From: Konateibacter massiliensis
GTDB lineage: Bacteria; Bacillota; Clostridia; Lachnospirales; Lachnospiraceae
DNA length: 64,000 nt
NCBI RefSeq assembly: GCF_900184995.1
Contig: NZ_LT860099.1
Span: 434,001-498,000 of the forward strand
Direction of reading: 5' to 3'
Shown: one piece after another, positions 11,379 through 19,487 of the stretch
Position numbering within the stretch: the first letter of the stretch is position 1
How the letters are laid out: each line of letters starts with the position of its first letter
The notes under the pieces: model-generated
What the model was told of the DNA's origin: nothing
The model's input: only the letters and a program-made list of their open reading frames with translations
Database searches by the model: none
Position numbers and translations under genes: made by a program

Positions 11379-12134
11379 ATGGCGGATTTAGAAGAGAATG
11401 AAAGTATATTAGGCGGAGAGCTGAGAGTGATAGAACAGAATCAACTGCTTCGAAACTCAGAGATATTAATCAATCAAACGCTGAAATTTCAAGAACTGAT
11501 GATGATGTACAGCTGCGCAATCAAGGAGGTCAAGACAAAGCTTGAGGTGTTGAATGCTGAGTTATCCGTTCGGTACAAGCGAAACCCGATTGAATTTATC
11601 AGCTCCAGAATAAAAAAGCCTGCCAGCATTGCAAAAAAACTGCAGAAAAAAGGAAAAGACATCAACGTACACGAGATAGAAAGCACCTTATCTGACGTAG
11701 CAGGAGTGCGTGTGATTTGCTCCTTTGTGGACGATATTTATGAAATTGCATCCATGCTTGTAAGGCAGGATGATATCACACTGGTAGATCAAAAGGATTA
11801 TATCCATGAGCCAAAGGAAAACGGATATCGCAGTCTGCATCTGATTATCGAAATTCCGGTCTTTTTCTCTGACCAGAAAAAGATGATGCGGGTGGAGGTT
11901 CAGATTCGTACGATTGCGATGGATTTCTGGGCAAGCCTTGAGCATCAGCTGCGGTACAAAAGTGTGGTAAACAACGAGGAAGAGATTAACCGTGAGTTAA
12001 AGGAATGTGCTGATGTAATTGCTGCAACAGATGTTAAAATGCTGAATATCAGGAACAAAATTCAAGAAAACACGGATGATGAGGAAACCATATTGGACAA
12101 GATGGATAAAATGGACTTCTCTAGTTTTTATTAA
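11379..12134 (+). CDS. Small alarmone synthetase (GTP pyrophosphokinase, RelP/RelQ type)
   Basis: Single-domain (p)ppGpp synthetase that transfers pyrophosphate from ATP to GDP/GTP. 251 residues. The RelA/SpoT nucleotidyltransferase core (about 70-195) carries RIKKPASIAKKL, DVAGVRVICSF, ENGYRSLHLIIE and VEVQIRTIAMDFWASLEHQ. There is no HD hydrolase, TGS or ACT domain, so it is not the long Rel enzyme. A short N-terminal coil of about 50 residues and a Glu/Asp-rich C-terminus flank the core. The ribosome site TAGGAG lies 8 bases before ATG. A 149-bp palindromic element begins 24 bases after the stop. Confidence 0.92.
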   Translation: MADLEENESILGGELRVIEQNQLLRNSEILINQTLKFQELMMMYSCAIKEVKTKLEVLNAELSVRYKRNPIEFISSRIKKPASIAKKLQKKGKDINVHEIESTLSDVAGVRVICSFVDDIYEIASMLVRQDDITLVDQKDYIHEPKENGYRSLHLIIEIPVFFSDQKKMMRVEVQIRTIAMDFWASLEHQLRYKSVVNNEEEINRELKECADVIAATDVKMLNIRNKIQENTDDEETILDKMDKMDFSSFY

Positions 12135-12158
12135 GGGCTTGAAAATAGATAGAAATAA

Positions 12159-12307
12159 TTGTAACTGTTCAGAGCCAATCTCGAAAACACTGTGTATTTT
12201 CGAGATGTGGCGTATCCGCCAAATAAATTTAGATAAAGATATGTTTAAGAATGCTTGCATTCTTAAGTATATTTTCATCTAATTTGCTTGGCTCTGAACA
12301 GTTACAA
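12159..12307. repeat. 149-bp cloverleaf-like palindromic element (MITE-like or structured RNA)
   Basis: A 20-bp perfect inverted repeat (12159-12178 and 12288-12307, arm ending CTGTTCAGAGCCAA) encloses three hairpins with almost no linker. Hairpin A has arms ATCTCGAAAA/TTTTCGAGAT (12178-12187, 12197-12206). Hairpin B has TGGCG/CGCCA (12208-12221). Hairpin C is a long stem of about 29 pairs (12225-12254 with 12257-12285), with three G-U wobbles, one A-C mismatch and one bulge. Wobble pairing in stem C favours an RNA fold. It has no ORF. It lies between the alarmone synthetase and the ohrR promoter. No second copy is present in the window. Confidence 0.8.
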
Positions 12308-12326
12308 ATAATTTTAATAAAATAAA

Positions 12327-12355
12327 TTGATTACAATATAATTGTATGATATAAT
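12327..12355 (+). promoter_or_regulatory. Sigma-A promoter of the ohrR-like gene
   Basis: -35 TTGATT (12327-12332), 17-base spacer, -10 TATAAT (12350-12355). Confidence 0.8.
12332..12346 (+). promoter_or_regulatory. OhrR-type operator
   Basis: TACAATATAATTGTA is a near-perfect dyad lying between the -35 and -10. It differs at one position from the Bacillus subtilis OhrR half-site arrangement TACAATT-N-AATTGTA. Its location implies autorepression. Confidence 0.75.
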
Positions 12356-12398: not shown

Positions 12399-12830
12399 AT
12401 GAATGAAGATTTATTAAAATTAGAAAATCAATTGTGTTTTCCCTTATATGCATGCGCGAAAGAAGTGGTAAAACAGTATAAGCCATATTTAGATGAAATT
12501 GATATCACATATACCCAGTATATCACGATGATGGTTTTGTGGGATAAGAAGTCGTTAAACGTAAAAACTCTCGGAAAATGCCTGTATTTGGATTCCGGAA
12601 CGCTTACCCCGCTTTTAAAAAAGCTGGAGAAGCAGGGATATATAAAAAGGGAGCGTTCTGTTGAGGATGAGCGTAATCTTATCGTTACGATTACAGAGAA
12701 GGGCGAAGAACTGAAACAGAAAGCAGCAGATATCCCTCTCAAAATCGGAGGCTGCATCAATCTGCCGAAGGAAGAGGCAGAATTTTTATATAACGTACTG
12801 TATCGCGTTTTGAATCAGATTACGGAATAA
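12399..12830 (+). CDS. ohrR: OhrR-type organic peroxide-sensing MarR regulator
   Basis: A 143-residue winged-helix repressor of the 1-Cys OhrR branch. The redox-sensing cysteine sits in ENQLCFPLYACAKE (Cys13), matching the Cys15 region of Bacillus OhrR. It is followed by the conserved YTQYITMMVLWD and YLDSGTLTPLLKKLEKQGYI recognition segment, with the wing DERNLIVTITEKGE. A second Cys (Cys18) lies nearby and Cys82-type C-terminal cysteines are limited to one (in GGCINLPK). Family knowledge predicts derepression when Cys13 is oxidised by organic hydroperoxides. An OhrR-like operator is in its own promoter. No ohr peroxidase is adjacent, so the target gene must be elsewhere. Confidence 0.85.
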   Translation: MNEDLLKLENQLCFPLYACAKEVVKQYKPYLDEIDITYTQYITMMVLWDKKSLNVKTLGKCLYLDSGTLTPLLKKLEKQGYIKRERSVEDERNLIVTITEKGEELKQKAADIPLKIGGCINLPKEEAEFLYNVLYRVLNQITE

Positions 12831-19194: not shown

Positions 19195-19487
19195 TAAGAT
19201 AAGAAAAGCGATGATAAGAAGAAGTAATAGTAAAAAAGCCAGACAGAAAGTTACCGGTTGATGAGAGGTGCACGGCAGATTGCTATGAATACATCTTTGA
19301 GCTTCACACCAAAAGACGAAAGTCGAGTAGGCTGTTGACGGTTCCCGCACACGTTATAGTGCTAGAGTATAACCCATATGTTAAGATGGAGTACTTGAAA
19401 AGGTAAACAGTGTGAGCTGTTTATGAACTTAAGGTGGTAACACGAGATATACTCTCGTCCTTTTGATTAAGGACGGGAGTTTTTTGT
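19195..19487 (+). promoter_or_regulatory. T-box leader (tyrosine) with terminator
   Basis: Stem I starts at GCGATGATAAGAAGAAGTA and carries a GGTTGATGAGAGGTG segment. The specifier loop is GAATACA, giving the Tyr codon UAC at 19290-19292. The T-box proper is AAGGTGGTAACACG (19431-19444), whose TGGT can pair with a tRNA ending ACCA. The competing terminator is ACTCTCGTCC (19451-19460) with GGACGGGAGT (19471-19480), followed by six T. Uncharged tRNA-Tyr should promote readthrough into tyrS. Confidence 0.93.

Follow-up and report, generated by a model that had tools for sequence, protein, structure and literature searches.

The palindrome between a RelA/SpoT-domain gene and a MarR-family regulator gene of Konateibacter massiliensis is a MITE, a short mobile element without a gene of its own; this identification rests on its dispersed copies, a target duplication of fixed length (8 bp) and the gap without the element at the same locus of a sister genome (G002). 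Its ends mark it as, very probably, a non-autonomous element moved in trans by an IS66-family transposase of the ISBst12 type, and its interior fold has, unusually for a MITE, been kept across genera by compensatory change.

Position and limits of the element

Within the window (the whole 64,000-nucleotide stretch of DNA analysed), a preliminary description had reported a perfect 20-bp outer stem enclosing three hairpins at 12159-12307, and both features were confirmed: the stem (12159-12178 with 12288-12307) is a perfect inverted repeat, and the three inner hairpins are separated by little linker. When 12150-12315 was folded, the plus strand reached a minimum free energy of -69.8 kcal/mol (z -11.4) and the minus strand one of -72.6 kcal/mol (z -12.8), a depth that 0 of 200 shuffles reached for either strand; the minus-strand pairing is thus no less stable than that of the plus strand. 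The palindrome is real, and its bounds had to be narrowed by two pairs, as the outermost TT/AA pairs of the stem belong to the duplicated target and the element proper, with its perfect 18-bp ends, measures 145 bp (Table 1).

Table 1. Features of the element in the window
Feature	Position	Strand	Basis
MITE, 145 bp, one of 11 near-full-length genome copies	12161..12305		genome copies, alignment
Target duplication AAATAATT, left copy, 8 bp	12153..12160		sequence
Target duplication AAATAATT, right copy, 8 bp	12306..12313		sequence
Left terminal inverted repeat GTAACTGTTCAGAGCCAA, 18 bp	12161..12178	+	sequence
Right terminal inverted repeat, 18 bp, perfect	12288..12305	-	sequence
Hairpin 1; ordinary pairs in the window copy	~12178..12206		fold
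Hairpin 2, TGGCG-TATC-CGCCA; least variable part of the interior	~12208..12221		fold, alignment
Hairpin 3, long; letters most variable, pairing kept	~12229..12282		fold, alignment

The upstream neighbour (11379-12134), described as an alarmone synthetase gene, indeed contains a RelA/SpoT domain (PF04607). The downstream neighbour (12399-12830), described as ohrR, belongs to the MarR family and has the OhrR model as its best NCBIfam match, but its score of 169.1 bits lies below the cut-off of 200. The -35-like TTGATT of this second gene begins at 12327, 20 bases past 12307 as had been described, and is followed by TATAAT at 12350. Two mechanical open reading frames, of 93 aa on the minus strand and 68 aa on the plus strand, span most of the element; both also overlap the last part of the upstream gene, in frames other than its own, and were not taken as genes. 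At gathering score, Rfam returned only a T-box leader (RF00230, 103.7 bits) elsewhere in the window, at 19202-19465 on the plus strand, and no match for the element.

Dispersed copies and target duplications

The preliminary description had left the choice between a MITE and a structured RNA to further searches, many copies with target-site duplications speaking for the former, and that is what the search of the same genome yielded. The genome (G000, 4.26 Mb in 7 contigs) holds 11 near-full-length copies of about 145 bp at 85-100% identity, none with a transposase inside, along with partial matches. When copies were aligned, their ends were sharp, at GTAAC and GTTAC. A script collected 66 candidates of 125-155 bp from this and other genomes, of which 54 were kept at a score cut of 140 and 12 weaker ones, some belonging to other families, were dropped. 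The 54 comprise 10 copies from the own genome, 26 from G027 and Coprococcus catus and 18 others; the eleventh own copy (L018) is left out of this set because its decayed left end caused the script to miss it.

A perfect 8-bp duplication flanks 31 of the 54 copies, compared with 17 of 2862 mismatched flank pairs, and perfect repeats of 5, 6, 7, 9, 10, 11 or 12 bp were found in 0 of 54 each (4 bp: 3 of 54). Duplications occur in all three groups (own genome 6/10, G027 and C. catus 17/26, others 8/18); a perfect one is missing in 23 copies, and two copies of the own genome have no trace of any. The target sites are AT-rich, with AAATTATT as the majority. The sister genome G002 has both flanking genes, and the gap between them lacks the element and keeps the promoter-like sequence of the second gene; this gap is too diverged for the empty 8 bp to be pinpointed. 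At the orthologous locus of G001, the upstream sequence did not align.

A DNA search matched only the own genome among three of the genus, with no match in the two other species, and 25 of 200 genomes of the family, the own one included; long matches in the other family genomes are 69-79% identical to the element. Contigs with both ends were, among the matches listed, from Coprococcus catus and from Lachnospiraceae, Clostridia or Eubacteriales MAGs, the search pattern being one that also matches unrelated phyla by chance. In G027 alone, the 16-base end occurs 93 times when up to 2 mismatches are allowed, and the reversed pattern 3 times. The plasmid collection gave no match with the element and the phage collection a single record, MT837934.1, an unverified scaffold from human faeces that holds a full-length copy (L349, 3285-3429, minus strand; 72.3% identity, 145.9 bits with the covariance model R1 described below); phage DNA, or bacterial DNA mislabelled as such, can therefore carry the element.

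Shortened versions were also seen. G027 and C. catus contain forms of about 33 bp (L344, G027:C64:20860-20892) and about 80-105 bp (L337-L343) with paired ends, and the short derivatives L021 (54 bp) and L022 (51 bp) retain their ends and perfect 8-bp duplications; in a third, L020 (72 bp), the duplication has 3 mismatches. Two 28-bp palindromes with GTAACTGTTCA ends and perfect 8-bp duplications (L110:7449-7476 and L181:3226-3253) consist of a motif that forms one end of longer elements at other loci. In the own genome, a short derivative of the window element is adjoined by a 100-bp element (L022:1842-1941) whose interior is different; it has GTAACAGTTCAG ends and is flanked by a perfect 8-bp duplication.

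The ends match those of ISBst12-group IS66 elements

As a rule, elements of the IS66 family start with GTAA and generate an 8-bp target duplication. Matches to the IS66 transposase profile PF03050 were found in 12 of 26 chosen relatives, and one of these, G016, provided a 1824-bp single-gene IS66 element (L228/L267) with ends GTATCTGTTCAGAACCCCC and GTAACTGTTCAGAACCCCC, whose protein matches the NF033517 IS66 transposase model at 222.6 bits (cut-off 180). A matching target duplication was not found at L228. With this transposase as query, 28 of 299 genomes matched in a search of the family, and an end within 2 mismatches of GTAACNGTTCAG lies near the gene at 7 of the 8 other fetched loci whose proteins are at least 44% identical to it (L268, L271, L277, L278, L282, L284, L288 and L289), the one without being L282, where the match stops at the contig end. 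Five more distant IS66 loci have GTTACTGTTCA or GTTACAGTTCA at both ends; of these, L274 and L280 show a perfect 8-bp duplication, L270 and L296 show none, and L275 begins at a contig end. In two of three single-gene IS66 transposases (L228:1390-2853 and L270:1339-2988), a DUF6444 domain (PF20042) precedes the DDE domain; the third, L296, is without it. That all IS66 elements share such ends was ruled out by L214 (G002), which has GTAACCGTCAAATAA ends and a perfect 8-bp duplication.

The same ends are found on an element of the ISBst12 group that has transposed. According to the accessible portion of its report (PMC12898284), ISDge4 has ends GTGACTACTCAGCA and GTAACTGCTCAGCA and produced the duplication CCTCGATG, the second end agreeing with 11 of the first 12 bases of the element. 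The ISBst12 group, as represented by ISDge4 in that portion and by L228/L267, and the element thus have in common the ends GTAACTG(C/T)TCAG, and ISDge4 and the element an 8-bp duplication. The IS elements differ in carrying a transposase gene, of 449 aa in ISDge4 (same source) or 487 aa in L228, whereas the element has none; as far as seen only the ends are common, and no likeness of the MITE interior to the IS was seen beyond them. From the matching ends and the 8-bp duplications of ISDge4, L274 and L280 we infer an ISBst12-type transposase as the mover of the element.

A profile search of the own genome returned 0 PF03050 matches, as did that of G027 despite its 93 end-like sites; donor enzyme and copies therefore do not co-occur in these two genomes, and the copies of the own genome are probably immobile relics for now. 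The absent transposase lowers the present activity of the element, not its past IS66/ISBst12 origin. In the course of events that we propose, an IS66-family transposase of the ISBst12 type, acting in trans, would have recognised the GTAACTGTTCAG ends and inserted the element into the AT-rich gap between the two genes, leaving the 8-bp duplication, after which copies would have diverged and, in some, parts of the interior would have been lost. The three-hairpin interior may come into play in a transcript of the element or when one of its strands lies exposed, and folding might make the element tolerable between genes or easier to move.

The interior fold is conserved across genera

Pairing was evaluated in an alignment (A2) of 25 minus-strand copies picked for diversity, using a majority structure of 58 pairs. 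As this structure was taken from single-sequence folds of the same, related sequences, which favours the structure somewhat, the values are to be read with that in mind: 94.3% of cells pair, and 28 of the 58 pairs have changed on both sides, in 167 cells. None of 500 shuffles reached the observed pairing, both-side changes or number of changed cells, and sliding the partners by 1-3 columns lowered pairing to 31-45%. In the long hairpin 3 nearly every pair varies among relatives with pairing maintained, and hairpin 2 hardly varies at all across A2. The pairing is accordingly kept in relatives, the absence of which the preliminary description had named as grounds for giving up its proposal. A simple MITE has no need of a conserved interior fold, and two further explanations of the conservation have to be weighed.

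Templated repair could yield the same compensatory changes, and it is possible, if on the unlikely side, that these changes are unselected, the arms of the palindrome rewriting each other by template switching in replication or repair. Hairpin 1 fits such an account: most own copies, along with L073, L080 and L101, have it fully paired, L004, L005 and many relatives retain mismatches in it, and its paired and mismatched forms differ by several neighbouring letters in one arm. The tandem T.C/C.T of this hairpin (G.A/A.G on the minus strand), however, persists in 16-17 of the 25 diverse rows, so that arm rewriting is not steady, and the kept sequence of hairpin 2 also argues against it.

Alternatively, the element could be a structured RNA first and foremost, whose minus-strand transcript folds into a multi-branched form with a function in the cell and which transposition merely spreads; we consider this unlikely. 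Both-side changes that no shuffle reproduced would agree with it, as would the wobble pairs and the model matches in 84 of the 392 genomes searched across the order. The preliminary description had read the wobbles of the longest stem as favouring selection at the RNA level, but the argument leans the other way, to the minus strand: in a strand-neutral fold of the 54 copies, A.C on the plus strand (G-U on the minus strand) occurs 47 times and G.T 10 times, a bias that is weak when reduced to distinct contexts (12 against 5), these being few because the copies are related. The plus strand is the more stable one in just 5 of the 54 copies, the minus strand of A2 has 49 G-U against 21 A.C cells (23 against 14 distinct types), and tandem G.A/A.G pairs occur on the minus strand of hairpin 1 in 17 and 16 of the 25 rows. 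Against an RNA of this strand stand the relatedness of the copies, the derivation of the A2 structure from minus-strand folds, and the orientation of the own copies: by a simple ORF caller, 10 of the full-length copies lie between genes of the same direction, with the window orientation sense in 7 and antisense in 3, and the eleventh lies between convergent genes. Read-through RNA would therefore more often be of the plus strand. Wobble and tandem G.A pairs thus lean to the minus strand and copy orientation gives no support, for which reason a minus-strand RNA is retained as a rival only.

Of the two readings offered by the preliminary description, the MITE is established by copies, terminal repeats, 8-bp duplications and the empty orthologous gap; the RNA is compatible with it, and neither reading excludes the other.

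Spread of the folded core and Rfam Clostridiales-1

A covariance model (R1) built from A2, the kind of search that the preliminary description had proposed for relatives, matched 84 genomes out of 392 searched in the order, the own one among them; the matches span five families and 46 of 174 genera. We read 63 distant R1 matches and found IS66-type ends on both sides in 20, on one side in 14 and on neither in 29, compared with 3 of 1158 random flank pieces. Among 40 fetched distant copies, 2 (L431 and L436) have a clear 8-bp duplication together with paired ends. Where a distant match lacks an IS66-type end, its outer stem is often still paired, in another sequence, a feature for which the model search itself selects; such matches could be copies that are old and decayed, different elements sharing the core or, among the lowest scores, chance likenesses.

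Because 29 of the 63 distant matches lack an IS66-type end, we also considered that the three-hairpin core is a mobile RNA module that predates any one transposon and has spread through the order on differently ended elements. We think it improbable that this is so, and that a GCUUGC-type loop on the long arm, the small GGCG hairpin and the arm with the minus-strand tandem G.A form such a module. At L444 (G320) and L447 (G353), both from a different family within the order, units of related hairpins are arrayed head to tail, the first beginning a few bases past a TATAAT; neither an IS66-type end nor a clear duplication was found for these units.

Another multi-hairpin repeat of the same bacteria is Rfam RF01699, Clostridiales-1, many members of which have, like the element family, a GCUUGC loop on a long hairpin; a 2010 table gives it as a probable RNA found in Clostridiales and the human gut (PMC2864571, accessible portion). 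In a scan of 20 loci with RF01699, two family members matched in minus orientation, L076 at 44.1 bits (26.5 bits when searched alone) and L314 at 35.4 bits, and the window copy scored 21.4 bits, on the plus strand only, against a cut-off of 48 bits. A match of 46 bits at L074 (bases 1-75) lies outside the element (990-1131) and was not counted. RF01699 itself matches 112 of 200 genomes of the family, many with at least 13 matches, and the own genome with 10, among them L379 (G000:C7:2697714-2697867). Its members have TGAT..GGGTCAAAAG ends and 5-bp duplications, unlike the other ends and 8 bp of the window element: of 30 loci read (L350-L379), 25 have a paired end, and among these a perfect 5-bp duplication was found in 14 and a 6-bp one in 3, against 16 and 0, respectively, of 600 mismatched pairs. 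Conversely, R1 gave scores of 19-28 bits at 11 of these 30 loci, at 10 of them within the long hairpin only. RF01699 was consequently rejected as the identity of the element, on its score below 48 bits, its other ends and its other duplication length. The Clostridiales-1 'RNA' looks MITE-like too, yet a different element; the long hairpin may be common to the element and to Clostridiales-1, itself mobile with another duplication length.

Least probable by far is that the element arose as a local cis-acting terminator or leader of the alarmone synthetase and MarR gene pair, since its place between two same-strand genes and its strong hairpin are outweighed by ten further copies beside other genes, most with target duplications, and by its absence from the orthologous gap in G002; such an origin is refuted, and an accidental effect on transcription at this locus may remain.

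Comparison with known elements

Families of bacterial MITEs are usually defined by their ends and are commonly confined to a single genus or species. The ends described here connect a large MITE family with the ISBst12 group of IS66, on which little work has been done, and the interior fold of this family is kept across genera. What keeps a folded MITE folded can therefore be tested on this family, be it an RNA function, tolerance between genes or templated repair; RF01699 also suggests that, in these bacteria, a covariation-based prediction of a 'structured RNA' can point to a mobile element.

The kind of element is known, and its family seems to be undescribed in the openly licensed PMC papers searched, in which no description of it was found. 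The accessible portion of a MITE review (PMC10969869) makes no mention of IS66, Lachnospir- or Clostrid-, and that of a Paracoccus survey names IS66 elements and no IS66 MITE. The closest known kinds, as far as the same portion of the review describes them, are the Correia elements, ERIC and the QMITE of Coxiella, some of which give rise to small RNAs or RNase III sites. Like the element, they are short and intergenic, with inverted ends, target duplications and strong folds; they inhabit other hosts, and the likeness is one of description. What distinguishes the present element from the folded MITEs described there (PMC10969869) is that the pairing of its interior is conserved across genera by compensation.
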